Below, in pieces: positions 18,386-63,250 of a stretch of 64,000 bases of DNA. Every line of letters begins with the position of its first letter. Position 1 is the first letter of the stretch. The notes below the pieces were generated by a model that worked only from the letters and a program-made list of their open reading frames with translations, had not been told where the DNA came from and made no database searches. Where the stretch lies: contig NC_007759.1 of NCBI RefSeq assembly GCF_000013405.1, forward strand, positions 2,729,001-2,793,000. The letters run 5' to 3'. This DNA comes from Syntrophus aciditrophicus SB (lineage in GTDB: Bacteria; Desulfobacterota; Syntrophia; Syntrophales; Syntrophaceae). Both the position numbers and the translations under genes were made by a program.

Positions 18386-23983
<5,598 letters not shown>

Positions 23984-27112: not shown

Positions 27113-27135
27113 ATGTATTTCTCCTTTTGTCTTTA

Positions 27136-44910: not shown

Positions 44911-45276
44911 TTGAACATCCAATACAAGATATGGCTGGAAAAGGATGGCCGCGTCCTTTTCGGCAAGGGCCGCGACGAACTGCTTAAGGCTATCGCGGAG
45001 TGCCGGAGTCTGAATGCAGCCGCCAAAAAACTGAATATGTCTTATCGGGCCGCCTGGGGCAGGTTGAAGGCTTCCGAGAAACGACTGGGCATCCCCCTCG
45101 TGGAAATCGAATCGCAGAAGCAGGGGATGCATCTGACCGAGCAGGCTGAAGCGCTGCTCAAGGCTTTCGATCAGCTCGATGAGGAAGTCTCTTCCCTGAT
45201 CGCTCAAAGGACTCAGCAATTGTCCTTTATCTGTAACCCCGACAACAGGAAAAAGGATTCTCCCAATAGCCCGTAA
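44911..45276 (+). CDS. ModE-like winged-helix DNA-binding protein (no molybdate domain)
   Basis: A 121-residue protein corresponding to the N-terminal DNA-binding half of ModE: IWLEKDGRVLFGKGRDELLKAI, then the helix-turn-helix SLNAAAKKLNMSYRAAWGRL. The C-terminal TOBE domains that bind molybdate in ModE are missing, so it may sense metal otherwise or act with a separate partner. The frame starts with TTG after GGAA. It is just upstream of an IS3 remnant and close to the metal-handling gene cluster. Confidence 0.82.
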   Translation: MNIQYKIWLEKDGRVLFGKGRDELLKAIAECRSLNAAAKKLNMSYRAAWGRLKASEKRLGIPLVEIESQKQGMHLTEQAEALLKAFDQLDEEVSSLIAQRTQQLSFICNPDNRKKDSPNSP

Positions 45277-46005: not shown

Positions 46006-46812
46006 TCAACTCTCCTCGATCTTAAACAGCTCATCATCGGCAAGTGATTCAATACGGTCCGGATCGACATTTCCCCGTACGGTCAGGGAGATTCGTCCGT
46101 CCTTTTTCCTCCAGGTGCTGGACAGAAACTCCCGGGAGCGTTGAAACAGGAACCGCGGGGGATTTGCCAATCGGGCACGGGACAGCCCCTGCAGCACATC
46201 GGCGAGACAGCCGGATCCGGTCACTTCCACAAACAGCTCGTCATCGTTCAGTTTTCCCCATCTCTCCTGGACAATCAATGCCATCCGCACGGCAATCCGC
46301 AGGTCGGCACAGAGCTCCCAGTGGTGGGCAAGGGCTTCCTTTTCCAGGAGCTCTTTCTTCATCTGCCGGGTTGCCGGCACGATTTCGGGTGTCCGAGGGG
46401 AAAATACAATGTCATGCTCGTAGTAAGGTTTGATATCCAGAACGGCGGTTCCGTTCACGGCATCCATCCCGCTGACGAACAGGCGGTTTTCTACAACCTT
46501 TTCCAATCGGACGAGGGTCAGGGCAACAGGATTCGGCCGGATCGGAGTCCTCAGGGCAAAAACGCCATACTTGGGCACGCTGGGATTCACCCTTGAGGGA
46601 GAGGCGGTAAGGACATTCCGTCTAGACTCGTGAAACCAGCACAAAATCCAGAGGTGAGAATTTTTGTCTATCTTATCGAGGGCTGCCGCATAGTCCGGAA
46701 AGATTTCAATGATTGCATCACTCCCCTGCGGCGACATTTTCGCCGTGGAGACGTCTGCCGAAATCACGGTCCCGATCGGCCGCAGTTCCATGGAATTTCT
46801 TGTGGCATTCAT
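46006..46812 (-). CDS. TrmO/TsaA-type domain fused to an FmdE-like domain
   Basis: A 268-residue two-domain protein. Residues ~8-140 are TrmO/TsaA-like, a SAM-dependent N-methyltransferase fold, with LWILCWFHESRR, VFALRTPIRPNPVALTLVRL and DIKPYYEHDI. Residues ~150-245 match the FmdE domain (ELCADLRIAVRMAL; VTGSGCLADVLQGLSRAR), a metal-linked domain named after molybdenum formylmethanofuran dehydrogenase operons, though the usual HGHxCPG ligands read HHWELCAD. A role in tRNA modification is less likely than one in metal or metallophore chemistry, given the gene cluster. GGGAGG precedes the ATG. Confidence 0.78.
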   Translation of the reverse strand: MNATRNSMELRPIGTVISADVSTAKMSPQGSDAIIEIFPDYAAALDKIDKNSHLWILCWFHESRRNVLTASPSRVNPSVPKYGVFALRTPIRPNPVALTLVRLEKVVENRLFVSGMDAVNGTAVLDIKPYYEHDIVFSPRTPEIVPATRQMKKELLEKEALAHHWELCADLRIAVRMALIVQERWGKLNDDELFVEVTGSGCLADVLQGLSRARLANPPRFLFQRSREFLSSTWRKKDGRISLTVRGNVDPDRIESLADDELFKIEES

Positions 46813-46924: not shown

Positions 46925-47740
46925 TCAGGCCGCTGTCCAGTTACGGCGCAGGTGAGTCAGATTGCCGCCGCGGCAGAGGAGAATGATTTCGGCCAGTATC
47001 GACAGAGCAATCTCCTGAGGCTGATTACGGCCGATAGACAGCCCGACCGGACAATAGAGCCGATCATCAATTTCTCCACCGCGGCTTCTGATGTTCTCGA
47101 TCAGCACGCGCGCCTTGTTCGGACTGCCCACCATGCCGATATAGGGGAGATCCCTGTCAGGAAGCAGTTGCTCCAGCACGATCTCGTCATGATCGTGTCC
47201 GTAAGTCATGATCACGCAGTAACTCAAGGCCGAGAGTTCAATATTCTCGGAAATCCTGTCAAAGGGGGCGCATATGAGGGCCGCCGCCCCGGGAAAATTT
47301 CCGGGGGTCAGGATCTCCGGTCGGTCATCATAGACCCGACAGGGCATTTCAATGGCCGCGCACAGACGCGCCAGGCACTGACCGATATGGCCGCCGCCGA
47401 AGATTACCAATTCGGGCTCCGGCACAATCGGCTCAATAAAGACCGTCAGTGAGCCGCCGCAGGCCCCCAGCGGGCGATCCTCGGCTACCCACTCTTCCCC
47501 CTCGGCCAGGGAGACAAAGCGCTGGGTGATGCAGGTCCGCTCTGCGATAGCCTTGCGGGCCAGTTCGATGCACTGTCGCTCGGCCGTGCCTCCCCCCACC
47601 GATCCGGCGCTCCGGCCGTCTTTATCCACCACCATCTTGGCCCCGGTCTTACGGGGTGTGAATCCCTGGGCGGCGATAACCGTCACGATCGCGCAGGGCA
47701 TACCCTTTGCCTTCCATTCAACCAGGCGTTTCAGCCACAT
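46925..47740 (-). CDS. XdhC/CoxI-family protein
   Basis: A 271-residue protein of the family that prepares molybdenum cofactor (sulfuration/insertion) for xanthine dehydrogenase-type hydroxylases. The N-terminal XdhC part has GSVGGGTAERQCIE and LGACGGSLTVFIEPI. The C-terminal Rossmann part begins ELVIFGGGHIGQCLA and ends with the YIGMVGSPNKARVL and GLSIGRNQPQEIALSILAEI segments. No xanthine dehydrogenase gene is in the window. The ATG at 47,738-47,740 follows GGAGAAAAAGG; the longer upstream frame is not supported. Confidence 0.9.
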   Translation of the reverse strand: MWLKRLVEWKAKGMPCAIVTVIAAQGFTPRKTGAKMVVDKDGRSAGSVGGGTAERQCIELARKAIAERTCITQRFVSLAEGEEWVAEDRPLGACGGSLTVFIEPIVPEPELVIFGGGHIGQCLARLCAAIEMPCRVYDDRPEILTPGNFPGAAALICAPFDRISENIELSALSYCVIMTYGHDHDEIVLEQLLPDRDLPYIGMVGSPNKARVLIENIRSRGGEIDDRLYCPVGLSIGRNQPQEIALSILAEIILLCRGGNLTHLRRNWTAA

Positions 47741-47957
47741 CCTTTTTCTCCTTTCCTGTCCCGTTGCCACGATCAAGGGGCATGCTGTGTTTTTTAGTTG
47801 TCGGCTCCTCGAAGTAAGTTTCAGCAAGCCGGCTTTACCGCTGCCCTGCCGCCATGATGTCATTTGTGATAAACAGCAGTCGAGTTAATCCATTCTGCAT
47901 GCGGAAATGCCTTCGGCCGTGCTGAATCGCCGACATCACCTTGAATGATCGGAATAT

Positions 47958-48746
47958 TCAGCGGGCCAGGGCGGAAATCCGTTCCTGCAATGCACGCAGG
48001 TCTCTGGCCATGTTGAGGCTCCGGAGAGCCCCGGCCGGGGCATTGGCGATACTGCCTCCTCCCAGCAGCGCATAATTCGACATAAGCTCTACATCGTCAA
48101 TCTGGGTAATGCCCAGCATATCGATGCCGTAATCGAAGAGCACAGGGCTGGCGGGTACGGTGGGCCCCATGATAATCCGCATTCTGGCCGATGGGGTCCG
48201 GCGGATTACCGCCTCCAGAGTTTCATTGACTACGGTAAGCCCGGTCATGAGCACCAGTTCGGCCTTCTCCAGCACTTCGTCGGCCTCGTTCCAGTGGATA
48301 TCACCCGGACGCGGGAATAACTCCACAATGGTTACCGGGTAGCCTTTTTCACGCCACGCCGCCGCTGTCTTAAAGTAGCCGATAAAGCAGGTCGGTATGC
48401 GGCACGCGGCCGGCTCGACGAGTTCGATGGCTCCCCCGGCGATCGTCGCGGGTGGATCGGGCAGCAGAGATTTGAGGCACGCCATCCCGACGCTGCGTTT
48501 GAGGATCTCCCGGCTGACCAGAAGTTCGAGGGCGGCCGCCCGCGCGGGCCGACCGATCCAATCCCCCATCCAGGTCCCCATTCCTGCAGGATCGGTAAAA
48601 CCGGGCATGCCGTGAAAGTAAGTCGAGATTGACCATTTCCCCGTCTTGACCAGGACCCAGTTGGCATAAATGCGAATCTCCTCGACGCACGCCGCCGGAT
48701 CGGCATCGGCAGCGATGCGCCGGATCATTTCTTCGTAGAATCCCAT
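47958..48746 (-). CDS. DUF364-family protein (putative heavy-metal chelation domain)
   Basis: A 262-residue protein with the DUF364 Rossmann-like domain: CFIGYFKTAAAWREKGYP, IVELFPRPGDIHW, DEVLEKAELVLMTGLTVVNETLE and IIMGPTVPASPVLFDYGIDMLG. DUF364 proteins are described as putative heavy-metal chelators; biochemical function is unknown. A second, longer DUF364 protein lies at the far end of the same cluster. GGGAGG lies before the ATG. Confidence 0.85.
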   Translation of the reverse strand: MGFYEEMIRRIAADADPAACVEEIRIYANWVLVKTGKWSISTYFHGMPGFTDPAGMGTWMGDWIGRPARAAALELLVSREILKRSVGMACLKSLLPDPPATIAGGAIELVEPAACRIPTCFIGYFKTAAAWREKGYPVTIVELFPRPGDIHWNEADEVLEKAELVLMTGLTVVNETLEAVIRRTPSARMRIIMGPTVPASPVLFDYGIDMLGITQIDDVELMSNYALLGGGSIANAPAGALRSLNMARDLRALQERISALAR

Positions 48747-49155: not shown

Positions 49156-51180
49156 CTAAAACCGATAAGTCAGATTGGTGAAGAAAGTACGCCCGGCCTG
49201 GGGATATCCTTCATCGAAGGCGTAATCCTCATCCATAAGATTCATCACGCCTCCTTCAATCTGCAGCCCTTTCAAAATCTCATATGTGGCTTTGGCATTC
49301 ACCACGGTATAGTCACCCGCTACACGGACTCCATCCGAGGAACTGTACCGTTTCGAATCGGTTTCCATATCAATAAGAAAACTTAAAAATTTTACGGGAG
49401 TATATTTCACGTAGGCGAAAAATTTGTGTTCGGGCACGTTGGTGATCTTGTCGGAGTTGGTGCGGTTGTCGTCATAAATGTAGGTGTAGTTGATCCCGGC
49501 ATCCAGCGTCGTGGTCAACGGGGCGGATAAATCGATCTCAAAACCGTACTGATTGACATCGCCGATATTCTGATTCTGTAAGGTCGTTTTACCCGCATTA
49601 TTCGGGTCGGGGACGGTCACACCAAGGATATAGTCTTCGATGTCACGATAGAAGAGGGCTGTCTTGAGAGCAATCCGCTGAAAAAGGACATCCTGATAGC
49701 CCAGTTCGTAATTTGTCCCTTTCTCCGGATCGAGATCGGGATTGGGAATGGCCCTCCCCAGCTTGTAGGAATATTTATCCTTGATACTGGGAAAGCGGGT
49801 CTTTTGAGAGACGCTGAGGTTAATCTTTCTCGTGTCGGTGAACGAATAGAAAAGGCCGGCCTGAGGATTCCACGCGTCGGCATCTGAATCCGGAAAATCA
49901 CGGTGATCAGCATAGTTCCAGTCCTCGGCCTGGACGGTTTCCTGCCTGTCATAACTCAGGCCGAGAATGGCATGAAGTTTGTCGGTAATCGTGATCGTAT
50001 CCTCAGCGCCGATGGAATAGATCCTTTCCTCGAACCTCTGGAAGGGATCCGGCAGGTTGTGTTCCTTATGCACATCCATTTTGTAGTGGCCGGCTACTTT
50101 GAGCAGGTTGCGCGGCACAAGGGAAGTGCCCAGTTCCAAAGATCCCCCGTAGGTATAATCGTCATACTGGCTCATGAAGGATGATTTCTTCTTCATGGTC
50201 GAATAGGTGGCATCGTCATAGCTGTTGAGGGAATTCTGATATTGATCATAGTACACCCGCGCTTTTGCATAGCTTTTGTCCCCCAGGGGCGTGCGGGAGT
50301 TGAAGTGAATCCCTTCCATGTCCCAGTAGGGCCACTGCCAGTACCTGATCGTCTCGGTGGATGCCGTTCCGGCGTAAGGCGGCGTCTCTTTTTTTCCTTT
50401 CTGTTTATAGTAGCTCAGGGCATATTCATGACCGTCCGCCGGGGTGAAACCTAACTTCAGATTATATGTCCAGTCCCGCCTGTAGGAGTTTTCCCGGCGG
50501 TCTCCATCCTCTGCCGGGGTCGGATCGAAATCATCGGACAGATAGAAAAAATCACTGCGAAGAAATGAAATGCCGCCCTGGGCATACCATAGTTTCTGCC
50601 TGGTGCCTACATTCGCGTATCCTCTATAGCCTTCCCCGCTGAACATGCCGATTCCGGCATCACCTTCCAAAGCCTTCTCGGGACGCTTCGACACGAGATT
50701 GATCGCCCCACCCATGGTGTTTGGTCCGTACAGAACCGAAGTGAAGCCCTTGGAAACAACGATTTCCGAGAGGCCGAAGGTGGTAAATCGGTTCAAGTCC
50801 GGATAGCCGTCATAGGGCACATAAATCGGTACGCCGTCGAGAAAGATAGGCACATGCTTTTGATCGAGGCCCCGGACATAAACCATCTGTTCGTTCCTGG
50901 CGCCCACTGTCGAAAGGGTAATGCCGGGCACGAGATTCAAAGCGCTGCCAAGCGTATCCCGGTTGAATTGCTTCATCTCCTGGTCGGTTATCTTTTCTAT
51001 GGTGGTATTCTTGCTTTCTTCTCCTTTCGCGGTTATTTCGATCTCTCCGAGGGTGAAAACTCCATCTCCATCCTTCACTTCGGCAGCCTGCGACTTCGCC
51101 CCGATTATAAGGCACAACATCAGAACGCCTGAAAGAATGAAGAACCAACTGCTGTTTCTGCTGCACCTGAATTCCATCAT
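49156..51180 (-). CDS. TonB-dependent outer-membrane receptor 1
   Basis: A 674-residue receptor with signal peptide (residues ~10-33), plug domain (TLGEIEITAKGEESKNTT; LNLVPGITLSTVG; VYVRGLDQKHVPIFLDGVPIY; SVLYGPNTMGGAINLVSKRP) and a 22-strand-type barrel ending in FFTNLTYRF, with the terminal Phe of outer-membrane proteins. It imports a scarce chelate using TonB energy. GGAGG lies six bases before the ATG. The upstream gap contains a perfect 18-bp hairpin. It is at the end of the uptake part of the cluster. Confidence 0.95.
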   Translation of the reverse strand: MMEFRCSRNSSWFFILSGVLMLCLIIGAKSQAAEVKDGDGVFTLGEIEITAKGEESKNTTIEKITDQEMKQFNRDTLGSALNLVPGITLSTVGARNEQMVYVRGLDQKHVPIFLDGVPIYVPYDGYPDLNRFTTFGLSEIVVSKGFTSVLYGPNTMGGAINLVSKRPEKALEGDAGIGMFSGEGYRGYANVGTRQKLWYAQGGISFLRSDFFYLSDDFDPTPAEDGDRRENSYRRDWTYNLKLGFTPADGHEYALSYYKQKGKKETPPYAGTASTETIRYWQWPYWDMEGIHFNSRTPLGDKSYAKARVYYDQYQNSLNSYDDATYSTMKKKSSFMSQYDDYTYGGSLELGTSLVPRNLLKVAGHYKMDVHKEHNLPDPFQRFEERIYSIGAEDTITITDKLHAILGLSYDRQETVQAEDWNYADHRDFPDSDADAWNPQAGLFYSFTDTRKINLSVSQKTRFPSIKDKYSYKLGRAIPNPDLDPEKGTNYELGYQDVLFQRIALKTALFYRDIEDYILGVTVPDPNNAGKTTLQNQNIGDVNQYGFEIDLSAPLTTTLDAGINYTYIYDDNRTNSDKITNVPEHKFFAYVKYTPVKFLSFLIDMETDSKRYSSSDGVRVAGDYTVVNAKATYEILKGLQIEGGVMNLMDEDYAFDEGYPQAGRTFFTNLTYRF

Positions 51181-51336: not shown

Positions 51337-51809
51337 TCACCTCCGTAGGATCTCCCTCGCCTCCCGCGGCCCAAGGTTGACCTGGAGAAAGAGTCTGAAA
51401 AAATCCTGAGTTTCTTTGACCATGTCTACTCTGTATTTGTCGGGGTGCAGAGTGCCGGCGAGCCATCTGGCTCCCAGCAGACGCATGAAGGATGGCGGGC
51501 GGTCGAACCAGTTGAAAGGCTGGCTGGGGATGAGATAGACCCTTTTATTCCGCTTTCCCATTCCCGGATCGGGAAATTGAGACCGGCCAGCATGGTGGGA
51601 TCAAGGGCGTAAAGCATGTAGGTTACCGGCGGCGTGGTGCTGTATACCTTCCGGGGACGATCGGGCACGTTTACCTTTTCCCCGAACATATCGGGAATTT
51701 CCCTGCCCTGCGATTGCCCTGATGGAGCCAGGACTGCCAGCAGGAAAATCGCCAGCGCCCACAATATGCAGCAGAACCTGCCTTCCATTGCTGCCGTGCG
51801 ATGTTTCAT
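51337..51809 (-). pseudogene. Decayed ABC substrate-binding protein with internal deletion
   Basis: The N-terminus (signal peptide; VPDRPRKVYSTTPPVTYMLY; MLAGLNFPIRE) and the C-terminus (RVYLIPSQPFNWFDRPPSF; FFRLFLQVNL) both match the intact binding protein at 56,477. About 200 residues between them are missing and the two pieces are in different frames. It overlaps the preceding methyltransferase stop by four bases (ATGA), the trace of an old operon. It cannot make a working protein. Confidence 0.88.
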
Positions 51810-52588
51810 GATCCGATCTCTCTGTCTTTCGTCCAATACAGAACCGCCCAGTAATAATTCCTTGAATAAGGCAACTGCCAATGACCCTTGACCCACACGA
51901 GATGCTCTCTCAGGTAGGCCCGAACTTTCTCTTCCTCTTCGCCCGTCATTCCTTGAAACATCCACAGCTGATCTTCAAACGCCTCTTCATGGCTTTCCCA
52001 CGAATTGCGGTAAGACTCAGGAATGAAGGAGACATTTGCCGGAATGCCCATCTCATAAAGCAGGTTGTAGTAGAAGATATAATCCGGCCTCGTGTTGCGT
52101 TCCCTGTCCGCTGCTTCGAGAAGTCGCCAGTCGAAAGGACCGGAACCAACAGCCACGGAGATATAGACCGCCTTTGTTGCAGCCCTGTTCAGCTTGGCTA
52201 TGGAATCCATTGCCGTCTCGCTGAGAAGCGACCGGGAGGCGATGGCCACGTCATGAACACCGATCCCCAGATCGTCCCAGTCATCTTCCCAACGCCCCTG
52301 AAGGGTTTTCACATTCGTGATTTTCCCTGCCAGACAACGCTGTTCGACAATCTCCAGCATCCGCATGGAGAAATCCACAGCGGTGATGAATTTCACCCTG
52401 TTTGCCAGAGGAATGGCGATTGTCCCGCCGCCGCAGGCCATATCAAGCACTGTCCAGCTTTTGCGGGGCTTTAGAATCCGGAGAAAGGCCCTGGGATATC
52501 CGGTGGAGGCGGCGTGTTCCGAAAACTCGCGGGCCCTTCCATCCCAGAAATCCCGCCTGTCTGAAGATACAGATGTTTTCTCATTCAT
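51806..52588 (-). CDS. Class I SAM-dependent methyltransferase
   Basis: A 260-residue soluble methyltransferase. The SAM site is VLDMACGGGTIAIPLA with the acidic AVDFSMRMLEIVE after it. YNLLYEMGIPANVSFIP and LWMFQGMTGEEEEKVRAYL are seen downstream. It is coupled to the decayed binding protein and lies inside the TonB/ABC cluster, so its substrate may be the transported chelator. A second such gene lies at 57,553. Confidence 0.88.
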   Translation of the reverse strand: MNEKTSVSSDRRDFWDGRAREFSEHAASTGYPRAFLRILKPRKSWTVLDMACGGGTIAIPLANRVKFITAVDFSMRMLEIVEQRCLAGKITNVKTLQGRWEDDWDDLGIGVHDVAIASRSLLSETAMDSIAKLNRAATKAVYISVAVGSGPFDWRLLEAADRERNTRPDYIFYYNLLYEMGIPANVSFIPESYRNSWESHEEAFEDQLWMFQGMTGEEEEKVRAYLREHLVWVKGHWQLPYSRNYYWAVLYWTKDREIGS

Positions 52589-52628: not shown

Positions 52629-53684
52629 TCACAACGGCGGAAGGCATTTCAGTATCCTTTCCGCGTCCTGATCCGTTATTGTTTTGCCGTACACCTCGGA
52701 ATAGAAGGTTTTCATTTCCTTAATCATGTCCCATTCCTTAAACAGGTCTGGGTGGAATATCCCGGCCATGTGGATCATCAGCAGCACGCCTTCACCGCTG
52801 GCGTGATCCCAGGTGTAAATGCCTCTGGGAAGACGATAAACCCTCCCGCTCTTCACAGCCTTCAGCTCAGCCCACTCCGGATTATTCCTTGGATCGTCGG
52901 AAGAATCATAATATCCACTCAGGAGAATGATATCCGGATTCCATGACAATACCTGCTGCAGGGTAGCCGTGGCATGGTTGCCATCGAGGGCCTGAGGCAG
53001 ATAATTGCCGCCGGACACTTCGGTGTTCCAGTGCATGACGCTGCCTTTTCCCTGGCTTCCCAAAAGGCTGGTGTGCAGACCGCCGTAGTAGACGGAAGGC
53101 CTGTTATTCTTGTCGATCTTTGAGGTAATGGAGAGAATCCGTTTGACTTGCCGGTCGAAATACGCGTTGTATTTATCCGCCCTGGCCTTCGCATCCGGGC
53201 CTAAAAGATCGCCGAACAGGGAGATTTCCCTTTTAAAGTTTTCCTGAAATTCATCGAGATTTCGCGGTCCTTTATCGGGCGAAAAGGCACAGACCGTTTT
53301 CAAGCCTGCCGCGATGTACGGTTCCTCTTTCGTCATTCCAGGAGAATAGAGCACAAAATCAATGTTCATTTCCCGCATCTGTTCCGGCGTAACCCCCTTA
53401 TTGGATTTAGCTTTCTTTATCTCCGGATAGAGCCTGTAAGCCCACGGAGACTGCTCCGCCATCAGGCTGATGGAATCGCCCCCGCCAAGGGTCATGATCT
53501 TTTCCGGAGAAACGCAATGCATGCAGGCGATTCTCTTTGGATTGACCGGCACCTCAACTTTTTTGTCGCACATGTCGGTTATGACTTTATTTTCATCGGC
53601 ATAAAGTGGAACCGTGTGCGAAACAGTCCCGAACAACACGGTTGACAGGATACCCAGCATAAAAAGAACCCTCCTCTTTTTCAT
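52629..53684 (-). CDS. ABC transporter periplasmic binding protein (FecB/BtuF type)
   Basis: A 351-residue class III binding protein with signal peptide (MKKRRVLFMLGILSTVLF). ITDMCDKKVEVPVNPKRIAC is the typical first strand, EQMREMNIDFVLYSPG and LSWNPDIILLSGYYD follow, and RVYRLPRGIYTWDH is a late segment. It likely binds a metal chelate in the periplasm. It is a different sequence from the 56,477 protein, so the one permease may serve two binding proteins. Confidence 0.9.
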   Translation of the reverse strand: MKKRRVLFMLGILSTVLFGTVSHTVPLYADENKVITDMCDKKVEVPVNPKRIACMHCVSPEKIMTLGGGDSISLMAEQSPWAYRLYPEIKKAKSNKGVTPEQMREMNIDFVLYSPGMTKEEPYIAAGLKTVCAFSPDKGPRNLDEFQENFKREISLFGDLLGPDAKARADKYNAYFDRQVKRILSITSKIDKNNRPSVYYGGLHTSLLGSQGKGSVMHWNTEVSGGNYLPQALDGNHATATLQQVLSWNPDIILLSGYYDSSDDPRNNPEWAELKAVKSGRVYRLPRGIYTWDHASGEGVLLMIHMAGIFHPDLFKEWDMIKEMKTFYSEVYGKTITDQDAERILKCLPPL

Positions 53685-53773: not shown

Positions 53774-54154
53774 TCATCCTTTCGATTCCGTCTGGAGGCT
53801 TACCTGCCTGAATCCGGCATTTTTCACGACATCGAGGACATCCACGAAATTCTGCAGGGGGATGTCCCGGTCCGCTCGAATCATGAACGGGTTGTTCCGG
53901 TCCAGGGGCCGGAGCCTGTCCAGCAGTTCTTCCAGCGTGACCGATTGTCCGGAAAAATAGATCAAGCCGTTCCTGTCGATCTCGACAGTTCGAACTTTCA
54001 GCGTCTCAATCCTGTTCTGAGACGCCTTGGGCAGGCTCACCGGAATACCGCCGGTCGCGATGAACGTCGAAGTGGTCAGAACGATCGTCAACAGGACCAG
54101 CATCACGTCCACCAGCGGGATGACGTTGATGTAATCAAACTCCTTCTCTTCCAT
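53774..54154 (-). CDS. exbD: ExbD-type energy-transducing protein
   Basis: A 126-residue ExbD/TolR protein. The N-terminal cytoplasmic DYINVIPLVDVMLVLLTIVL has the membrane helix with the proton-path Asp. The periplasmic part contains IEIDRNG-like (VEIDRNGLIYFSG) and MIRADRDIPLQNFVDVLDV segments. With ExbB it powers TonB. It overlaps the end of exbB by 20 bases. Confidence 0.94.
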   Translation of the reverse strand: MEEKEFDYINVIPLVDVMLVLLTIVLTTSTFIATGGIPVSLPKASQNRIETLKVRTVEIDRNGLIYFSGQSVTLEELLDRLRPLDRNNPFMIRADRDIPLQNFVDVLDVVKNAGFRQVSLQTESKG

Positions 54155-54569
54155 TTCGAATCTCCCAGTTCATCATGAGAACCTTGACGCGGCGGAGCAG
54201 CAGGTTGTAAAGCACAATGGACGGAATGGCCACGCAAAGCCCCACAGCGGTTGCCTTCAGGGCCAGGGCAAGGCCGACCATGATTTTCCCCGTATCCATG
54301 AACCCATCTCTGCCCATGCTGTAAAATGTCAGCATAATTCCGCAAACGGTGCCGAGCAGACCGATATAGGGGGCATTGCTGCCGATCGTCGCAATGAGGT
54401 GAAGCTTTCTGGTAAGCACCATTTCGAGGCTTTTCCTGTCGGAAAATTTTTCAAGATTGATGTGCCTGTAGAGTAAGTGTCGCTCAATCGCGATGCCCAC
54501 GGAAATAAAACTCAGGAAAACGAGCCCCCAGATGATTCCGTAATCCACCGCCTCCTTCAGCCAGTCCAT
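54135..54569 (-). CDS. exbB: ExbB/TolQ/MotA-type proton channel
   Basis: A 144-residue ExbB, shorter than E. coli ExbB (244). IIWGLVFLSFISVGIAIE is helix 1; IATIGSNAPYIGLLGTVCGIMLTF and MVGLALALKATAVGLCVAIPSIVLYN are the two conserved helices with their Thr/Gly channel residues. Together with ExbD and the TonB at 60,424 it makes one energising complex for the two receptors. Confidence 0.94.
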   Translation of the reverse strand: MDWLKEAVDYGIIWGLVFLSFISVGIAIERHLLYRHINLEKFSDRKSLEMVLTRKLHLIATIGSNAPYIGLLGTVCGIMLTFYSMGRDGFMDTGKIMVGLALALKATAVGLCVAIPSIVLYNLLLRRVKVLMMNWEIRNGREGV

Positions 54570-54609: not shown

Positions 54610-55476
54610 TTATCCACCCCGAACCGCTGAACATGAAATGGGCTCCCCCAGTTCACACGGCGGCAGCGGTGAATGAGCGAACTCCGTACAGCCGCAGATC
54701 GTCTGGGGGACGCACACCCGCAGGGACCTGTTGAGCTTCAGCACATTGACCCTGGCGTTATAGAGGTGGAAGAGATTTTTGCTGCTGATGACCTCATCAC
54801 ATTTTCCGTCCGCCATGAGAGCGCCGTTTTTTATCATGATGGCACGGTCCGCGATCCAGAGGGCGTGCTCGGGGGAATGGGTCGATTTGATGAAGGTGTA
54901 TCCTTCCCGGGAAAGCTTGATAATCTGATCGAGGAGTCTCATCTGGTTCCCGTAATCGAGGCCGCTTGCCGGTTCGTCCATGATGAAGGTCTTCGCCCCC
55001 TGGGCAAGCGCCCGGGCAATGAGGGTGAGCTGCCGCTCGCCGCCGCTGATTTCCGTGTAGGCCCTGTCCGCAAGGTGGGAAATGGAGAGTCTCCCGAGCG
55101 CATCGGCGGCAATCTCCATGTCGGCCTTCGAGTATTGGAAAAAGAAGGCCTTGTGCGGAATTCGTCCCATCAGCACGACATCCCTTACTGTATACGGAAA
55201 GGAACTTTTGTGGAGCTGCGGGACATAGGCGACTTCCCTGGCAAGGGATTTGGAGCTCATCTGCTGAATATTTTTCCCGTTGAAGAAAATATCGCCCCCT
55301 GCCGGACGGAGGAGGCCAAGCATGATCTTGATGAGGGTGCTTTTCCCGCAGCCGTTGGGTCCGAGCAGGGTAACGATCTCACCTTTCTTTATGGTAAAAC
55401 TGATATCGCTCAGCACGTTCTCCTCCGTATAGCCGAACGATATCTCTTCCACTTGAATCAACGGTTTCAGTTCCAT
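54610..55476 (-). CDS. ABC transporter ATPase (FecE/BtuD type)
   Basis: A 288-residue ATPase of an iron-chelate/B12-type importer. Walker A LLGPNGCGKSTLIKI, signature ISGGERQLTLIA, Walker B TFIMDEPASGLD and switch His STHSPEHAL are all intact. The start at 55,474-55,476 overlaps the permease end by 10 bases; the longer frame is inside the permease. The C-terminal ~40 residues, after the core, are rich in Cys/Pro. Confidence 0.93.
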   Translation of the reverse strand: MELKPLIQVEEISFGYTEENVLSDISFTIKKGEIVTLLGPNGCGKSTLIKIMLGLLRPAGGDIFFNGKNIQQMSSKSLAREVAYVPQLHKSSFPYTVRDVVLMGRIPHKAFFFQYSKADMEIAADALGRLSISHLADRAYTEISGGERQLTLIARALAQGAKTFIMDEPASGLDYGNQMRLLDQIIKLSREGYTFIKSTHSPEHALWIADRAIMIKNGALMADGKCDEVISSKNLFHLYNARVNVLKLNRSLRVCVPQTICGCTEFAHSPLPPCELGEPISCSAVRGG

Positions 55477-56480
55477 CCTTTTTTTGCCTTCCTCAAGATG
55501 ATCGCGAAAAACGGGATGCCGATGAGCGAAGTGGTTATCCCGATGGGGATCTCCACATTGAAGAGCATCCGCGAAACATCGTCGACAACGATCAGGTAAA
55601 TGGCCCCGATGAGGGCGCTGGCCGGGATCACCACCTTGTTGTTGGGACCCACGAGCATCCGCGTGATATGGGGGATGATGAGACCCACCCAGCCGATCAT
55701 CCCTGCCAGAACGACGGTCAGCGCGCTCATCAGCGTCGCCAGGAAGATAAGCAGCATACGGATCCACTCGACGGAGATGCCGAGCGCCCGCGCTTCCTCG
55801 TCGCCCATGCTCAGGGCGTTGAGATACCCGGAAAACAGGCAGACAAGGAAAATGCTGGCCGCTTGGGGAATGCCGGCGGTCAAAAGTATTTTTCCATCTA
55901 CAAGGGATAATCCGCCCATGAGCCACTGGGTAATGGCAGGCAACTGGTTGTATGGATCGGCGATATATTTGATGACTGACAAAAGAGACGTGAAAAGCGC
56001 GCTGCTGATGACGCCGCCCAGCACGAGGAGAAGCAGAGTATTCCCTTTGTGCATCCTGGCGATGCCTACGGAGACGAGTACGGCAAGAAAGCCGAAAAGA
56101 AACGTGGCCACCTGCACGGCAACCCAGCTTTTGAAAAAGACCATGCCCAGCGCGGCGCCGAATGAGGCCCCCGCAAGCACACCCAGAAGTGACGGGGAAA
56201 CGAGCGGGTTGACAAACATGGCCTGAAAGGCGCTCCCCGCCACGGCAAGTGACGCGCCGATCAGGATGGCGGCCAGAATGCGGGGCATGCGGATGTCGAG
56301 AAGCAGGCTCCCCAGCAGGTTGTACCGTTCGAATTCCATACTTCCGGCACCGAAAATCTTAAACAGGAAGAAACCGGCAATGTCACTCAGCGCAAGTGGA
56401 TATCTGCCGAGCGTCATCGAAAATGCCACGGTCAGAACGAGCAGAAAAATCAATGCCGGAAAAAGCAGGTTGCGTTTCAT
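55467..56480 (-). CDS. ABC transporter permease (FecCD family)
   Basis: A 337-residue integral membrane permease, one of a homodimer in this family. RMPRILAAILIGASLAVAGSAFQ is the typical first conserved segment and GWVGLIIPHITRMLVGPNN the coupling region. About ten helices are visible. It overlaps the binding protein (ATGA) upstream and the ATPase downstream. Confidence 0.94.
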   Translation of the reverse strand: MKRNLLFPALIFLLVLTVAFSMTLGRYPLALSDIAGFFLFKIFGAGSMEFERYNLLGSLLLDIRMPRILAAILIGASLAVAGSAFQAMFVNPLVSPSLLGVLAGASFGAALGMVFFKSWVAVQVATFLFGFLAVLVSVGIARMHKGNTLLLLVLGGVISSALFTSLLSVIKYIADPYNQLPAITQWLMGGLSLVDGKILLTAGIPQAASIFLVCLFSGYLNALSMGDEEARALGISVEWIRMLLIFLATLMSALTVVLAGMIGWVGLIIPHITRMLVGPNNKVVIPASALIGAIYLIVVDDVSRMLFNVEIPIGITTSLIGIPFFAIILRKAKKGWN

Positions 56481-57526
56481 GGATAGAGAATCTTTTTCAT
56501 ATCCTGGGTTGAGAGTTCGACGCCGAGAAACAGGCGGTAGAACTCCCTCGCTTCCTTAATGATGTCTATTCTGTATTCCGCGGGATAAAGGATATGGGTC
56601 AGCCATTTAAGACCGAGGATGCGCATGAAGGAAGGGGGACGGTCAAACCAGTTGAAGGGGTGCCTGGGGATCAGGTAGACGCGCCCTTCCCGCACGGCTT
56701 TGATATTCCGCCAGACGGGATCTTTGAAGACCTTGTCGTAGAAGACCTTTTCCTGCGCGATAATGACATCCGGGTTATAGAGCATGACCTGCTCCATCGA
56801 GACCTTTTCAAATCCCTTGTGACACGACGTGTGGCAGCGGTGGACGTCCGTATCGCCGGCAAGTTTAAGAAGTTCCACATGGATCGAGTCGTCGCATTCC
56901 GTGCTCAAGCCGTCCACGCCTTCCGCATAGTATACGGAGGGTCTTTTTTTGGCGGGAATCCTGCTGACGACGTCCTTGATTTCATTCAGCGTCTTTCTGC
57001 TGTAGCTGCTGAGTTGTTTTGTCCTCTTTTCTTTTTTAAGGACTTTGCCGAGAAATTGATAGACATCGGGATAATCGGCAAGGCTCTCAGCGACAGCATA
57101 AACATACGGAGTATTGAGTTTTTTCAATGTCTCTTCCGCCTTGTCATTGATGGCGGACCTGCTTGCCGACCACATGATCAGCAGGTCCGGTTTCGCCTTC
57201 AAAAGCACCTCGATATTGGCCGTCCGGCCCTGGCCGCCGATGGAGCCGATCAACGGCAGGTTCCGTACCGCTTTCGGGAAGTACTTCATGTCCTCGTCCC
57301 TGATCGGGAGATTAAGCCCCGCCAGCATCGATGGATCGATGGAATACATGATATAGGAACCGTAAGGGGAAGGTGCGTATACCTTCCGGATGGAATCGGG
57401 CACGGTCACTTTGCGCCCGGCCATATCGGTTACGGTCAGAGCCTTTGCGGCATCTACACCGAAAACAGACACCGCAAGAAACACGGCAATCGCCGTGATA
57501 ATCCGGATACGTCTTTTATTGAACAT
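56477..57526 (-). CDS. ABC transporter periplasmic binding protein (FecB/BtuF type)
   Basis: A 349-residue binding protein with signal peptide (IRIITAIAVFLAVSVFG). VTDMAGRKVTVPDSIRKVYA, SMLAGLNLPIRDEDMKYFP and LLKAKPDLLIMWSA are typical. The late segment RVYLIPRHPFNWFDRPPSF is shared with the decayed gene at 51,337. The ATG at 57,524-57,526 follows GGAGG; 18 further codons upstream are open but lack a ribosome site. It overlaps the permease by four bases. Confidence 0.92.
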   Translation of the reverse strand: MFNKRRIRIITAIAVFLAVSVFGVDAAKALTVTDMAGRKVTVPDSIRKVYAPSPYGSYIMYSIDPSMLAGLNLPIRDEDMKYFPKAVRNLPLIGSIGGQGRTANIEVLLKAKPDLLIMWSASRSAINDKAEETLKKLNTPYVYAVAESLADYPDVYQFLGKVLKKEKRTKQLSSYSRKTLNEIKDVVSRIPAKKRPSVYYAEGVDGLSTECDDSIHVELLKLAGDTDVHRCHTSCHKGFEKVSMEQVMLYNPDVIIAQEKVFYDKVFKDPVWRNIKAVREGRVYLIPRHPFNWFDRPPSFMRILGLKWLTHILYPAEYRIDIIKEAREFYRLFLGVELSTQDMKKILYP

Positions 57527-57552
57527 TCCGCACAAACCTCCTCTTTTCTTCT

Positions 57553-58188
57553 TTAAATCTGTTTCCATAAATGTATCCACATGCCGTCATCGCCTCTTGT
57601 CGCTTTGCAGGCAGGAATGCCGGTCTGTTTCAGAATCGCACGATAGTCTCTCTGCGGAGGATGTCCGGAACCGCCTTCTCCTGATCCTCCGGTGTGCCCC
57701 GGCATTTCAGGCCATTCGATGCCGAGTCTGGCCATTTCTTGCCTGATGAGGGCCTGCATTTCCGGAGCACCCCTGCCGCCGCCCACGTAAGCCGCCCCAC
57801 CCGGCGTCAGGACTCGATATATCTCGCTGAGCGCTTTTGCAGGCTCCTGCCAGAAAGGGATGGAGCCCCGGCTGATGACGAGGTTGACCGATCCGTCGGC
57901 CAATGGAATGCAGTGAACATCGGCAAGCAGGGTTTTCGCCCTTTCCTGGAGGCCATCCTCGATAATGTGCAGCTTTGCGCTCTCCAGGGCATCCGCCGAT
58001 ACATCAAGGAATATGAACTCCAGATCCGTGATCCGGGCAAGGGCGAGCCCCAGGTATCCGCCGCTTGACCCGACATCCAGGCAAACACCTTCTACAACGG
58101 CGGTTTCTTTCTTGATCTTCCGGGCGTAGTATTCGTAAATAGGGGCGTTAACGCCGCGGGCAATTTCGTCGTACCTGGATATCTTCAT
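57553..58188 (-). CDS. Class I SAM-dependent methyltransferase
   Basis: A 211-residue methyltransferase with SAM loop GVCLDVGSSGGYLGLALARI, then IFLDVSADALESAK and VNLVISRGSIPFWQEPAKALSEIYRVLTPGG. It lies between TonB receptor 2 and the binding-protein gene, mirroring the second methyltransferase near receptor 1. I infer it methylates the chelator or a related small molecule; nothing in the sequence names the substrate. Confidence 0.9.
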   Translation of the reverse strand: MKISRYDEIARGVNAPIYEYYARKIKKETAVVEGVCLDVGSSGGYLGLALARITDLEFIFLDVSADALESAKLHIIEDGLQERAKTLLADVHCIPLADGSVNLVISRGSIPFWQEPAKALSEIYRVLTPGGAAYVGGGRGAPEMQALIRQEMARLGIEWPEMPGHTGGSGEGGSGHPPQRDYRAILKQTGIPACKATRGDDGMWIHLWKQI

Positions 58189-58252: not shown

Positions 58253-60352
58253 CTAATAGGCCAGTGACAGTTCCATTCCGACGGTGCGTCCGCGATCATA
58301 GTAGTATCCTGTTGAATATCGCGTCGCATACCGCTCGTCTCCTAAATTGCGCCCGTAAAGCGTGGCGGTCAACAGGCATGGTTTCAAGTGAAAGAGTCTC
58401 TTGATATTGGCATCAACCCGGGTGTAATCGCCAAGATCCGCTTCGGCCGTCCCCATCGCACTGGTTGACGAATACCATGAATCGACTTTTTTAATGGAAA
58501 GATTGGCCCTGTAGTCACGCCACTTATGGCTGATCTCCAAGGTGTAAAGATTTTTTGGTTTTGATACACCGTTATTGTCGGTGGTTACGCCGTTCTTTGT
58601 GTCTTCGTTTTTCAGCATCCGCGTCCAACTCACGCTGTAAGAGGTGTTTTTCAAGATGTCGCCTTTAATCATCAGTTCCACGCCTCTTCTCAGGTTGTCC
58701 GCTTCGGTGTAGTAGTAATAGGTGCCACTGTCCAGCGTATAGGTTGTATTTGTTGCCGTTTTTTGATTGTCGGTTTTGATATTGAACCAGGTCAGCATTG
58801 GTCTGAAATAGGCTTTGAAATCAGATTCAATCGCAAATTCCATCCGGTCCTGCTTTTCAGGATGCAGTTCACCGGTTTGCGATCTCATATCGAAATCGCC
58901 ACTTGTTCCCTGTTCGCCGTGATAGTAGCGTCCGTTCAAGGCGACGATGTCCATGATCCGCCAGCGGGCGCCCAAGGCGTAAATCTTCGCCGGATCCATA
59001 TCGACATCATTATTGGCGCTGTCTTTTGCCGCCGATGTACTTGAATTATCGATATGCTTTTGATCCTGGCGATAGCCGGCATCCAAAACGAGTCTGTCGT
59101 TAAAAAGCTTTTGCTCCACGGATGCGGACCAACCCATGACCGACGTGTCATATCTGTTGTAGTTGCTGCTGAGATTAGGACCTAACCCCTCGCTTTCCGA
59201 CATCTGTCCACCCAGTTGAATCAGCGTGTTCCAGAAGCGGGCATTATGGCGAAGGCCGATACCGCGAGTTTCTTCCTTATATTTTCGCATCGATGAGGAA
59301 GAATTAATGAAACTTTCGACGTATTCTTTCTGATCATAGGTTGTCTTGAATACATTGAGAAGCGTCGTCTGGTTCGGGCTCCACCGCATCGTCATATCCG
59401 TTGATAAAACGGTCGATTGTAAAGGATCATAATACCACTTCATATTATCGAGCGTGCCGTCATACTTGACACCGCGCTGCATTTCAAAATTTCCCGAAGA
59501 AGTCCATCCCATAAAGTTCATATTAAATTTGCCAATCGTAAAACCCGCATTTCCCATTCCATTATCCGCGTTTCGCCCATCGAACCAGCTATCCTGGCTG
59601 GGACGATCCATCATTGACGCCATACCGCCGACATATCCATTAATTTTTGGAGAATCCCCAAGACGGGTCCCGAGATATAAATTCACATCTGTTGCAATCG
59701 GATGACCGCCTATGGACTTTTCAACAGAGCCGGTGAGGACGGCCTCCGTCTTTCTCGGCTGTTTGGTTCTGATGATAATAAAGCCCGTATTAAGGCCTGA
59801 TCCCGAACCGGATGCGCCGATGGGAATGGAAGGACCTAAGGTCAGAGATGTGGAGCCGCGGACGATTTGCAGTTCTTCAATAGCAGCCAGCGGCAATTTA
59901 TATAAAATTCGATTAACGGACGGAGGCAGTACCGCACCGTCGATAATGTAGGTAAAGCTTCCGCCGCCTCGCGTTTCAATGAAAAAAGGACTTCTGCGCC
60001 CCTGATAAGTCACGTTCATGCCGGTTGCCTTGTCAAGCAGGTCATTTACATCGCCGGGTTTCAGATTTTGAATATCTTCCTGGGTAAAGACCTCCGTGCC
60101 GAATCGGGCGCTGGATTCAACACGATACGGATTAGTGGGACTATCGGGCATAAGATCCTCCCGCGGGTGAGCATCAGTCACTTTTATCGACTCCAATTCC
60201 GTCGGCGAGGTTTGACTGCTAACAGATTCCTTTTGTGTTGGTGATTTGATGTTTTTCTGGTCTGCCTTTTCTTCCGCAAAAGCCGCCTGGGACAAAAAGA
60301 TCACCCCGGGAATCAACAAAAAAAATAACGACCGCTTGTAGAGACCAATCAC
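58253..60352 (-). CDS. TonB-dependent outer-membrane receptor 2
   Basis: About 699 residues. Signal peptide LFFLLIPGVIFLSQAAFA; a short N-terminal linker with EKADQKNIKSPTQKES; a plug domain with TGMNVTYQGRRSPFFIETRG, GGSFTYIIDGAVLPPS and IEELQIVRGSTSLTLGP; and a barrel ending GRTVGMELSLAY. The start is taken as the GTG at 60,350-60,352, which follows GAGGAGGAAGG; the longer frame to 60,415 is not needed. It is directly downstream of tonB. Confidence 0.93.
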   Translation of the reverse strand: MIGLYKRSLFFLLIPGVIFLSQAAFAEEKADQKNIKSPTQKESVSSQTSPTELESIKVTDAHPREDLMPDSPTNPYRVESSARFGTEVFTQEDIQNLKPGDVNDLLDKATGMNVTYQGRRSPFFIETRGGGSFTYIIDGAVLPPSVNRILYKLPLAAIEELQIVRGSTSLTLGPSIPIGASGSGSGLNTGFIIIRTKQPRKTEAVLTGSVEKSIGGHPIATDVNLYLGTRLGDSPKINGYVGGMASMMDRPSQDSWFDGRNADNGMGNAGFTIGKFNMNFMGWTSSGNFEMQRGVKYDGTLDNMKWYYDPLQSTVLSTDMTMRWSPNQTTLLNVFKTTYDQKEYVESFINSSSSMRKYKEETRGIGLRHNARFWNTLIQLGGQMSESEGLGPNLSSNYNRYDTSVMGWSASVEQKLFNDRLVLDAGYRQDQKHIDNSSTSAAKDSANNDVDMDPAKIYALGARWRIMDIVALNGRYYHGEQGTSGDFDMRSQTGELHPEKQDRMEFAIESDFKAYFRPMLTWFNIKTDNQKTATNTTYTLDSGTYYYYTEADNLRRGVELMIKGDILKNTSYSVSWTRMLKNEDTKNGVTTDNNGVSKPKNLYTLEISHKWRDYRANLSIKKVDSWYSSTSAMGTAEADLGDYTRVDANIKRLFHLKPCLLTATLYGRNLGDERYATRYSTGYYYDRGRTVGMELSLAY

Positions 60353-60423
60353 TGCACCTTCCTCCTCATAAGAATGAAATAAACGCCTCCGATACTTATT
60401 TATCTTCAGCACCACATATCGAT

Positions 60424-61239
60424 TTAGAGCTTCAGCATATAGACGACGGGGATCACCAGTTCCGCTCTGACCGGCGGCTTCGGAAAGGGCTGAACCTGAC
60501 GGATTGTCTCCACCACGTTTTTATCCAGAATTCCGTGGCCCGAACTCTCCACCACCTTCAAGGCCTCGACCCGGCCGTCCTTTCGAATGACGAATGAAAC
60601 CCTGACCTTTCCCTGCCAGCCTACCTTCCTGGCCATGGGAGGATAAGTGAGGTTGTTCATGATGAGGTCGCGAATATAGGCGAAATGTTCCTGTAAATAG
60701 CGGGTTTTCAGGCTCTCAAGTGAATCGCGGCTCTGTCCTGACCCTTCATCACGTCCCGCACCGCTGCCTATGCCGGTACCGCTGCCGGTTCCGGTTCCAC
60801 TGCCCAGACCGGAACCGCTGCCGGCACCTTTCCCTCCCCCGGACGCAGCCATGACCGGTGCTGCGATATTCGCCAACGGGGACATTTCCTCAACAGGTTT
60901 CTCTGTCAAAATCGGCGGAACGTCAGGCATCGATTCAACGGGTGTTCTCTCCATGACTGGGGGAAAATCGGCTGTGTTAAGCTGCCGGGTCGGGTGCTCT
61001 CTGCGATGGGTTTGTCTCGCCGGGGGACTCGGAACTTTCTTTTCCGGAACCTTCATCTGGTTGATTTCTCCACCGCCCCCGCCACCGGGCGGTTCCAGTG
61101 TCAATAACACCCGCACTGTTTCCGGATGCTGGGCGGAGAACGTCATGAAAAACAGAGTGCTTGCGACGCAAAAAATATGAATGGCAAGGGACAGGAGCAT
61201 CCCTTTATGCAGGCGAATCTGTTCTTCCGTAATTGTCAT
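60424..61239 (-). CDS. tonB: TonB-family energy transducer
   Basis: About 271 residues. An N-terminal membrane helix (MLLSLAIHIFCVASTLFFM) is followed by a periplasmic linker. Instead of the usual long Pro-rich rod, it has a Gly/Ser/Thr repeat (GSGSGLGSGTGTGSGTG) near the middle, after a Pro-rich start. The C-terminal domain carries MARKVGWQGKVRVSFVIRKD and VEALKVVESSGHGILD. It would transmit proton-motive energy to receptors 1 and 2. The start could be the ATG at 61,239 or a TTG nine codons earlier. Confidence 0.92.
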   Translation of the reverse strand: MTITEEQIRLHKGMLLSLAIHIFCVASTLFFMTFSAQHPETVRVLLTLEPPGGGGGGEINQMKVPEKKVPSPPARQTHRREHPTRQLNTADFPPVMERTPVESMPDVPPILTEKPVEEMSPLANIAAPVMAASGGGKGAGSGSGLGSGTGTGSGTGIGSGAGRDEGSGQSRDSLESLKTRYLQEHFAYIRDLIMNNLTYPPMARKVGWQGKVRVSFVIRKDGRVEALKVVESSGHGILDKNVVETIRQVQPFPKPPVRAELVIPVVYMLKL

Positions 61240-61318
61240 TGCCGCTTCAGCCTCCGCGCAGCTCAATCTTCCTCATCACCATGGCGAAGAAAGCGGCTGC
61301 GACTTGTCCCTTCCACAG

Positions 61319-61885
61319 TCAAGCGGAAACCTGATAATAATTTTTTCGCTCAAAGCAGGGTTTGCACAGTGTTTCTCCCTGCGACTCAACCTCCCGCCCA
61401 TCCATGATATTTTCCCCGCAGCGCGTGCACTGGCAGCGACGCAGCGGTTTTCCCGGCAGATCTTCTGGCCGCAACGGAACGTTCACCTCGGTGATGGAAA
61501 AAAGTTCTTCTTCGCTGAGAGTTCCGAAGTCCGGGTTATCTCCCTCTTCCTTTTTCCTGTTGATCGCCACCCGGACGGCTTTTTCCGTTTCCAGGTTGAC
61601 AAAGGTGGCCGCCATCTTCCCGTAATCGAGGACTTTCATCGTTCTTTTTCCCGGCCTGCATCCGGTCAGGGCCATGATCGCATCCGTGGCGCAGCGGTCG
61701 ATTTCCACAAACACCATCAGCTTTTTCCTGTCGGCGCCTTTTGGATCCAGGATGCCCACTTTCCGCAAACCGCACATAGTCATCCGGGTGCCGATCTCGA
61801 TGCCTGCGCAGACATCGCCGTGAAAAGCCCCCGCTTCCGCCAGCAGCGTTGCGTACTGGTCCTTGTTATTTTGTTCTTGCAACAT
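61319..61885 (-). CDS. FmdE-family protein with C-terminal zinc ribbon
   Basis: A 188-residue protein. The FmdE domain has AGAFHGDVCAGIEIGTRM and EIDRCATDAIMALTGCRPGKRTM, typical of proteins named after the Mo formylmethanofuran dehydrogenase operon. A zinc ribbon (CQCTRCGENIMD and CKPCF) forms the C-terminus. A metal-handling role is inferred. GAGGAGG precedes the ATG. It lies 17 bases after the DUF364/DUF4213 gene, so the two start the operon together. Confidence 0.9.
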   Translation of the reverse strand: MLQEQNNKDQYATLLAEAGAFHGDVCAGIEIGTRMTMCGLRKVGILDPKGADRKKLMVFVEIDRCATDAIMALTGCRPGKRTMKVLDYGKMAATFVNLETEKAVRVAINRKKEEGDNPDFGTLSEEELFSITEVNVPLRPEDLPGKPLRRCQCTRCGENIMDGREVESQGETLCKPCFERKNYYQVSA

Positions 61886-62832: not shown

Positions 62833-63250
62833 AAACTTCAATCCTCTGATTTCGAGCAGAATTTGCGTATTGATTCCGGCCTTCTCGACCGGACCCGCCG
62901 GTCATGCCTGATCCAGACATATGTTAATTTTTATATATGTTGCGGAAGGCTTATATCACAAAATACATAATGTCAAGCCTGTACCTTGATTTTTTCATCA
63001 AGAAAAAAGTCGTCGTCCCGAACAAACTGGATCGCCGGGGATTGATTCTCTAATAAATCAGCAGCATTCAAGTTGATGGATATGTACAGGGAGCGCCGTC
63101 CGGAGGGCATAAACCAAACCGATGAAATCACAGCAGGGCAAAACATCCATATCGCGCCACTTCCGTCCAAATTTGGACCTTCACCATTCACCATGGGTAG
63201 GACGTACGGCGGTAAAACTCACGGAACCGGCTGCGTCCACAGCTGTCAGG
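62833..63250. other. Promoter region of the metal cluster, no clear gene
   Basis: The left part holds the palindromic promoter-like element (62,947-62,980). Short open frames exist on both strands (63,194-62,973 minus; 63,073-63,276 plus) but without ribosome sites or recognisable domains. Confidence 0.4.
62947..62980 (-). promoter_or_regulatory. Palindromic promoter-like element, copy B
   Basis: On the minus strand 6-bp arms AGGCTT/AAGCCT enclose 22 bases starting GACATTATG. TTGACA is formed at the arm-core junction, and TATAAG or TAAGCC could act as the -10. It sits ~115 bases before the first gene of the metal cluster. The core matches copy A at 45,348-45,385 at most positions, while the outer arms differ but stay complementary. 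Confidence 0.5.

Follow-up and report, generated by a model that had tools for sequence, protein, structure and literature searches.

A fused TrmO- and FmdE-like protein of anaerobes and its molybdenum and tungsten gene context

What would a protein that matches a model for tRNA methyltransferases be doing at the end of a metal-uptake gene cluster? The question is raised by a 64,000-nucleotide stretch of the Syntrophus aciditrophicus SB genome (the window), in which a minus-strand cluster at 46.0 to 62.8 kb has as its last gene a fusion of a TrmO-like and an FmdE-like domain (Table 1). Judging from sequence and gene context, we conclude that this protein and its relatives of the same type (type I) very probably work in the acquisition of molybdenum or tungsten (Mo/W) or in the assembly of the cofactor, and not in tRNA modification.

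The fusion architecture itself is already known. The combination of PF02663 and UPF0066 was listed in 2010 (PMC2954224), and fusions of FmdE with a tRNA methyltransferase were reported for seven archaea in 2024 (PMC11237513). Both share with the present case the presence of the two domains in one protein; as far as we searched, however, neither includes a bacterial family, an altered ligand set, a Mo/W riboswitch, or a context of MoeA or FdhA genes. In the open-access literature we came across no description of the bacterial family, the altered metal site, riboswitch control, or molybdenum cofactor (Moco) gene context, and none of metal-uptake loci with standalone TrmO genes. What is new is the biology, that is, the Mo/W riboswitch and gene context, by which proteins matching the NCBI tRNA methyltransferase model TIGR00104 are placed in Mo/W metabolism.

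Two domains and their conserved sites

A preliminary description of the gene, made from the sequence alone, had proposed a TrmO-type N-terminal half and an FmdE-like C-terminal half with altered His/Cys ligands, and had pointed to domain searches and structure prediction as checks. All three features stand. The N-terminal half matches Pfam TrmO_N over residues 31 to 132 (E = 1.8e-29) and exceeds the cutoff of NCBIfam TIGR00104 (107.8 bits versus 93.25). The AlphaFold model (mean pLDDT 81.6, mostly 88 to 98 for residues 151 to 268) combines a TrmO barrel with an FmdE fold; its N-terminal domain matches 2nv4 (AF0241; Z = 15.6), the nearest solved structure being AF_0241, and 7bu1 (Z = 13.8). Taken alone, the C-terminal half falls under the Pfam FmdE gathering threshold (17.3 bits versus 22.9; E = 0.0051). 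FmdE matches at E ≤ 0.01 are found in 17 of the 31 aligned relatives (best, 9e-8), and an archaeal relative (L223) exceeds the threshold at 40.9 bits. A profile of the fusion C-terminal halves aligns with ten standalone FmdE proteins (hhalign, 97.3%, E = 1.8e-11, 113 columns), and the modeled domain resembles the FmdE structures 2glz (Z = 12.4; 2.6 Å rmsd over 112 residues), 3d00 (Z = 11.1), and 2gvi (Z = 10.6). Because of the relatives' matches, the profile comparison, and the fold match, we conclude that the C-terminal half is a real FmdE-type domain despite its weak Pfam score. A lack of FmdE similarity in this half would have overturned the preliminary description, and it was not what the searches showed.

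In Escherichia coli TrmO, SAM is contacted by Gln25, Arg92, Asp125, and Lys136 (Kimura et al., PMC4132733). All four are kept in the window protein, as Q29, R88, D117, and K128; the preliminary description was right that SAM-site residues are present, although they lie around the segment that it quoted (TPIRPNPVALT) and not within it. Among 35 bacterial relatives, R88 is found in 33 and D117 and K128 in all, the RPN motif is nearly invariant across bacterial and archaeal relatives alike, and nearly all archaeal relatives have all four residues. Of the 35 bacterial relatives just 3, the window protein included, have the SAM-contacting Gln, and because this residue helps to bind SAM, its loss from 32 of them suggests that SAM handling may differ in most. 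The DPRxxY motif, which E. coli TrmO needs for tRNA methylation (PMC4132733), is absent from all relatives and, among 84 proteins, occurs in E. coli TrmO only. Compared with TrmO/YaeB (TsaA, UPF0066, COG1720; the tRNA m6t6A37 methyltransferase), the fusion family thus shares the beta-barrel domain and, in the window protein, the four SAM residues, but it has an FmdE-like domain in place of DPRxxY, a Mo/W context, and, in most members, no Gln.

FmdE has as its metal ligands the two His and the Cys of the FHGHxC motif, together with a more distal Cys (PMC2954224). The window protein reads HHWELC at this motif: it keeps H164, C168, and the distal C202 but has Glu166 at the position of the second His. 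This exact H-E-C-C set occurs in 28 of the 35 bacterial relatives. The other seven (L031-L035, L120, and L124), which cluster on the tree with modest support (88/82), have lost both C168 and C202, the distal Cys always giving way to Glu. Eleven archaeal proteins (L221-L231) have HGExC, in one case HGDxC, with the distal Cys, and five more (L232-L236) have H-E-C-H, the distal Cys being replaced by His. D205, Q208, G209, P218, and R220 are invariant among the bacterial relatives and R214 is found in 34 of 35; that the arginines R214 and R220 have an oxyanion role is only a guess. Seen against the FmdE family (PF02663; 2glz, 2gvi, and 3d00), the fusion shares the fold (Z = 10.6 to 12.4), the first His, the first Cys, the distal Cys, the Asp, and the Gln, as well as the metal-transporter neighborhood described for FmdE (PMC2954224). 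It differs in having Glu for the second His ligand and Arg for a conserved Thr, in having no treble-clef zinc finger, and in scoring under the Pfam threshold.

Distribution and origins of the fusion

A distribution survey, of the kind that the preliminary description had suggested, in which each species was represented by one genome, returned 31 full-length relatives that are 41 to 59% identical to the window protein and come nearly all from anaerobic Bacillota (Syntrophomonas, Desulfotomaculaceae, Pelotomaculum, Petroclostridium, and Dethiobacter). The closest, at 59% identity, is from a MAG labeled Desulfuromonadales (L006), and the 395 genomes scanned from the phylum to which the window belongs yielded no further full-length member of the subfamily. 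The fusion occurs in about eleven of 299 genomes of Pelotomaculum's phylum and, in full or near-full form, in about two dozen of 295 archaeal genomes. Two genomes encode three fusion paralogues each, and four of the eight genomes checked have no other TrmO match. The source genome also encodes a separate TrmO of 163 amino acids (L001:592-2203), flanked, as read from the sequence, by a DUF364-like gene on one side and a zinc-ribbon gene of the FmdB type on the other.

In a tree of the TrmO half, the 35 bacterial fusions form one group (support 100/100) that joins the 16 archaeal type-I fusions (SH-aLRT 84, in a quick tree of few columns). A second type of archaeal fusion (L237-L240; Archaeoglobales-like), which has a canonical FmdE domain with a zinc finger and adjoins FecBCD genes, nests among TrmO genes that stand alone within FecBCD loci; it is of separate origin from type I. 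A Halanaerobiales-like fusion (L126) has a tree position separate from both. These separate positions imply that TrmO and FmdE fused independently no fewer than two times, and probably three. In L125, L136, L137, L141, and L142, separate genes for the two lie side by side. Two more TrmO proteins (L127:7563-8423 and L128:7231-8097), whose C-terminal halves are FmdE-like but have no Cys ligands left, lie on long branches, in unrelated contexts.

Molybdenum and tungsten in the gene context

The surroundings of the fusion gene had been described as a metal cluster, and the cluster does contain XdhC, FmdE, DUF364, and TonB/FecBCD genes (Table 1); for the family as a whole, the metal can be narrowed to Mo/W. 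The best NCBIfam match of the XdhC/CoxI-type protein is XdhC_rel_AOR, under its cutoff. A ModE-like helix-turn-helix gene lies 730 bp from the fusion gene, its product having no recognized molybdate-binding domain. The FecCD permease, the ABC ATPase, the second binding protein, and the standalone FmdE are 36 to 47% identical to their counterparts in L122, a locus with two Mo/W riboswitches, and the L006 operon, whose FecCD is 45% identical to that of the window, starts with one. Because of the resemblance to these two loci and the nearby ModE-like gene, the most likely cargo of the window's uptake system would be Mo/W. Solved structures were set aside as a guide to its substrate: no ligand is stated for 4pag, the best match, and the match to HI_1472, a molybdate/tungstate binding protein, is much weaker.

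Table 1. Features of the fusion gene and its surrounding cluster in the window
Feature	Position	Strand	Basis
TrmO-FmdE type-I fusion protein	46006..46812	-	ORF, ATG start, 268 aa; last gene of the cluster
TrmO/UPF0066 beta-barrel domain, residues 6-133	46414..46797	-	TIGR00104 107.8 bits; 2nv4 Z 15.6; SAM residues aligned with E. coli TrmO
FmdE-like domain, residues 149-268, without treble-clef zinc finger	46009..46368	-	2glz Z 12.4; hhalign E 1.8e-11
Metal-site motif HHWELC, residues 163-168 (H164, E166, C168 replacing FHGHxC)	46309..46326	-	Alignment
C202...D205..Q208.....R214.....R220, distal Cys ligand and family-specific arginines	46153..46209	-	Conservation in 35 bacterial relatives
XdhC/CoxI-type protein (Mo-enzyme maturation)	46925..47863	-	PF13478 2.8e-34, PF02625; 112 bp upstream of fusion
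DUF4213/DUF364 protein	47958..48746	-	PF04016 5e-33
TonB-dependent receptor	49156..51180	-	PF00593 3.3e-45, PF07715
Class I methyltransferase	51806..52588	-	PF13649 3e-9
Periplasmic binding protein (Peripla_BP_2)	52629..53684	-	PF01497 8.7e-11
ExbD and ExbB	53774..54569	-	PF02472 1.4e-26, PF01618 2.8e-29
FecE-type ABC ATPase	54610..55476	-	PF00005 2.7e-33
FecCD permease	55467..56480	-	PF01032 1.6e-75; 44-45% identical to L122 and L006 permeases
Periplasmic binding protein (second)	56477..57580	-	PF01497 2.7e-18; best PDB match 4pag 3e-80
Class I methyltransferase (second)	57553..58188	-	PF08241 1.4e-16
Second TonB-dependent receptor (58253-60415) and TonB (60424-61266)	58253..61266	-	PF07715 9.3e-10, PF03544 2e-19
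Standalone FmdE with zinc finger	61319..61885	-	PF02663 7.6e-30; 44% identical to L122 FmdE
Second DUF4213/DUF364 protein	61903..62841	-	PF04016 2e-39
ModE-type helix-turn-helix regulator	44911..45276	+	TIGR00637 9.4e-14, under cutoff; PF00126

Other features of the window include the remnant of a periplasmic binding protein, its middle missing, between the TonB receptor and the methyltransferase (51350-51830), and a long CRISPR array followed by apparent type I-C cas genes, as read from translated ORFs (18400-32330). Transposase-like ORFs lie at 45461-45898 and 32633-33895, one of them ending about 100 bp from the 3' end of the fusion gene, and are compatible with horizontal arrival of the cluster.

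Among the bacterial relatives, fusions adjoin ModA (L013) and WtpA (L009) genes that score above the NCBIfam cutoffs, and their loci further include TupA-like proteins (L009 and L121), a WtpA-like protein (L012), a molybdenum storage protein (L006; PDB 2ogx, E = 1.7e-54), MOT1 molybdate transporters (L033 and L034), and proteins with an Oxidored_molyb domain (L007 and L016). The independent fusion L126 adjoins TupA (PDB tungstate-binding protein, 8.5e-82). FecBCD genes are paired with the fusion in the window, L006, L025, L034, L122, and L124. DUF364/DUF4213 (PF04016; putative heavy-metal chelation) neighbors it in the window, L009, L013, L025, L120, L122, and L230; this protein has an unrelated fold and is a partner, not a homologue. 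Its published context includes molybdate and tungstate transport (PMC2954201).

Neighbors within 6 kb were counted with phmmer, the controls being 20 short-TrmO loci of Desulfobacterota and 20 arbitrary loci of the fusion's phylum. Mo/W genes are present at 15 of the 35 fusion loci (12 with their own exemplars excluded) versus none in either control set, and any metal-uptake or FmdE/DUF364 gene at 22 of 35 versus 0 of 20 short-TrmO and 1 of 20 arbitrary loci; 13 bacterial fusion loci have no metal neighbors. The p-values of these counts (3e-4 to 1e-6) are only indicative, because the families were chosen after some loci had been inspected. Short TrmO genes of the fusions' own phylum were rejected as a neutral control, since 16 of 20 adjoin FecBCD, Opp/Nik-type, CooC-like, or FmdE genes.

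Two further arrangements recur at bacterial loci. The fusion gene ends an operon for an NMT1-type ABC importer in L020, L024, L026, L028, and L114, and in L024, L028, and L114 this operon is headed by a Mo/W riboswitch. In L014, L016, L017, L034-L036, and L124, the fusion is flanked by genes for very large secreted proteins that contain Oxidored_molyb-like domains and repeat domains; parts of some resemble, by eye only, the alpha/alpha barrels of transcobalamin, and a possible role for them is as extracellular cofactor binders.

The riboswitch test (Rfam RF01055, Mo/W = Moco) was not tuned to the protein. The motif is present at 10 of the 30 bacterial type-I loci scanned and also at L126. The 30 loci hold 11 motifs versus 1.26 expected from a genome-wide rate of 3.0 per Mb (164 in 54 Mb), with P of about 1e-7; none was found at eleven short-TrmO loci or at eleven arbitrary loci. 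In L013 and L118 it immediately precedes the fusion gene, at 217 and 169 nt, respectively, making 2 in the 400 nt before the gene versus 0.018 expected, and it heads the fusion's operon in L006, L009, L016, L024, L028, and L114. Of the seven aptamers displayed, six (L006, L009, L013, L028, L118, and L122(-)) have no P3 stem, and L122(+) keeps it; the P3-less form correlates with the tungsten cofactor (Regulski et al., PMC2408646). For the window itself, regulation by a Mo/W riboswitch is ruled out, as RF01055 is found neither there nor elsewhere in the source genome, and its link to Mo/W therefore rests on orthology and on its own neighbors.

In archaea, 11 of the 16 fusions adjoin genes for formate dehydrogenase, MoeA, FdhD, or FmdE. 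The neighbors in L221-L231 are a molybdopterin formate dehydrogenase (FdhA, 861 bits versus a cutoff of 666), MoeA, FdhD, an FwdD-like protein, a standalone FmdE, or DUF364, each family having been verified in at least one locus and the remainder read from sequence. The other branch, L232-L236, has no neighbors of metal or Mo/W type. We saw no outer-membrane uptake system near the fusions of L221-L231, and because of this the archaeal context favors a role at the level of the cofactor over one in metallophore metabolism.

A possible role in molybdenum or tungsten supply

We infer that the TrmO barrel would dimerize, with SAM at the subunit interface, as in crystallized relatives. The neighboring uptake or cofactor-assembly proteins would deliver a Mo/W ligand, be it a pterin, chelate, or oxyanion complex, and the FmdE half would hold it through H164, E166, C168, C202, and nearby invariant arginines. 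The SAM half would then modify this ligand, most simply by methylation, so that the metal is released, trapped, or inserted. SAM-dependent catalysis is argued for because the SAM residues are near-invariant, and the most economical substrate would be a small Mo/W ligand handled together with DUF364, MoeA, or a transporter. The proposal as a whole, including modification by the SAM half of a ligand held by the FmdE half, has in our view a little less than an even chance of being right, and the chemical step, a SAM-dependent modification of a Mo/W ligand, is put forward more tentatively still. That this branch of the TrmO fold comprises SAM-dependent Mo/W cofactor enzymes that modify a pterin or chelate ligand held by the FmdE domain, a step not known in any Mo/W pathway, is speculative, and we consider it rather unlikely.

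The main rival is a Mo/W chaperone or sensor, in which the FmdE half would deliver Mo/W or the cofactor to a recipient enzyme or transporter, while SAM would be bound by the TrmO barrel only as a regulatory or structural ligand, with no catalysis. It draws on the same Mo/W context, and the large dimer groove of the FmdE structures, which suits a big ligand (PMC2954224), the cofactor-insertion proteins MoeA and FdhD next to the archaeal fusions, and the loss in 32 of 35 relatives of the Gln that contacts the SAM amino group would all fit it. However, near invariance of R88, D117, K128, and the RPN motif is seemingly more than a structural ligand would need, and the window cluster also encodes class I methyltransferases; on balance we think a noncatalytic role rather unlikely.

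Catalysis on a ligand not tied to Mo/W is less probable again. The protein could be a metallophore enzyme serving several metals, making or altering a small chelator that is exported and then reimported through TonB/FecBCD, as the six loci with FecBCD pairing, the metal loci of related standalone TrmO genes (16 of 20), and the proposal that DUF364 acts in pterin or siderophore synthesis (PMC2954201) might suggest. We regard this as improbable, since the archaeal fusions adjoin formate dehydrogenase and MoeA genes with no such uptake genes nearby, and Mo/W riboswitches occur at fusion loci and at none of the short-TrmO loci scanned.

A genuine tRNA methyltransferase (for m6t6A or another modification), in which FmdE would replace the tRNA-binding C-terminal domain and couple decoding to Mo/W status, has in its favor the TIGR00104 equivalog match, the four SAM residues of the window protein, and the four of eight genomes with no other TrmO match, but it is very unlikely given the restriction of DPRxxY to E. 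coli TrmO among 84 proteins (PMC4132733), the genomes with three fusions, the separate TrmO of the source genome, and a Mo/W riboswitch control that it can hardly explain. A job other than tRNA methylation, as the preliminary description had suggested, is thus favored by the missing motif, the paralogues, and the Mo/W transport, riboswitch, and enzyme context of the family, although the window's own cluster has no riboswitch.

To our knowledge, neither archaeal-type YaeB nor FmdE has been assigned a function since it was first described. The fusion, co-conserved and controlled by riboswitches, offers a direct handle on the functions of its YaeB and FmdE halves, as well as on Mo/W supply to formate dehydrogenase in syntrophs and methanogens. 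If this branch of the TrmO fold has indeed given rise to Mo/W cofactor enzymes, then the TrmO-like and FmdE genes that stand alone in the FecBCD, Nik-type, and CooC-like loci of further anaerobes would form sister systems, each serving some other metal.

The short standalone TrmO genes of Pelotomaculum's phylum (L129-L148) deserve mention in their own right. Sixteen of the 20 lie within 3 kb of FecBCD, an Opp/Nik-type ABC transporter, a CooC-like ATPase, or FmdE, and these "tRNA methyltransferases" may have a part in metal uptake. Cobalamin riboswitches near the short-TrmO/FecBCD loci L131 and L138 point to a cargo unlike that of the Mo/W-linked fusions. The gene order FecB-FecC-ABC-TrmO-FmdE recurs in L136, L137, L141, and L142.
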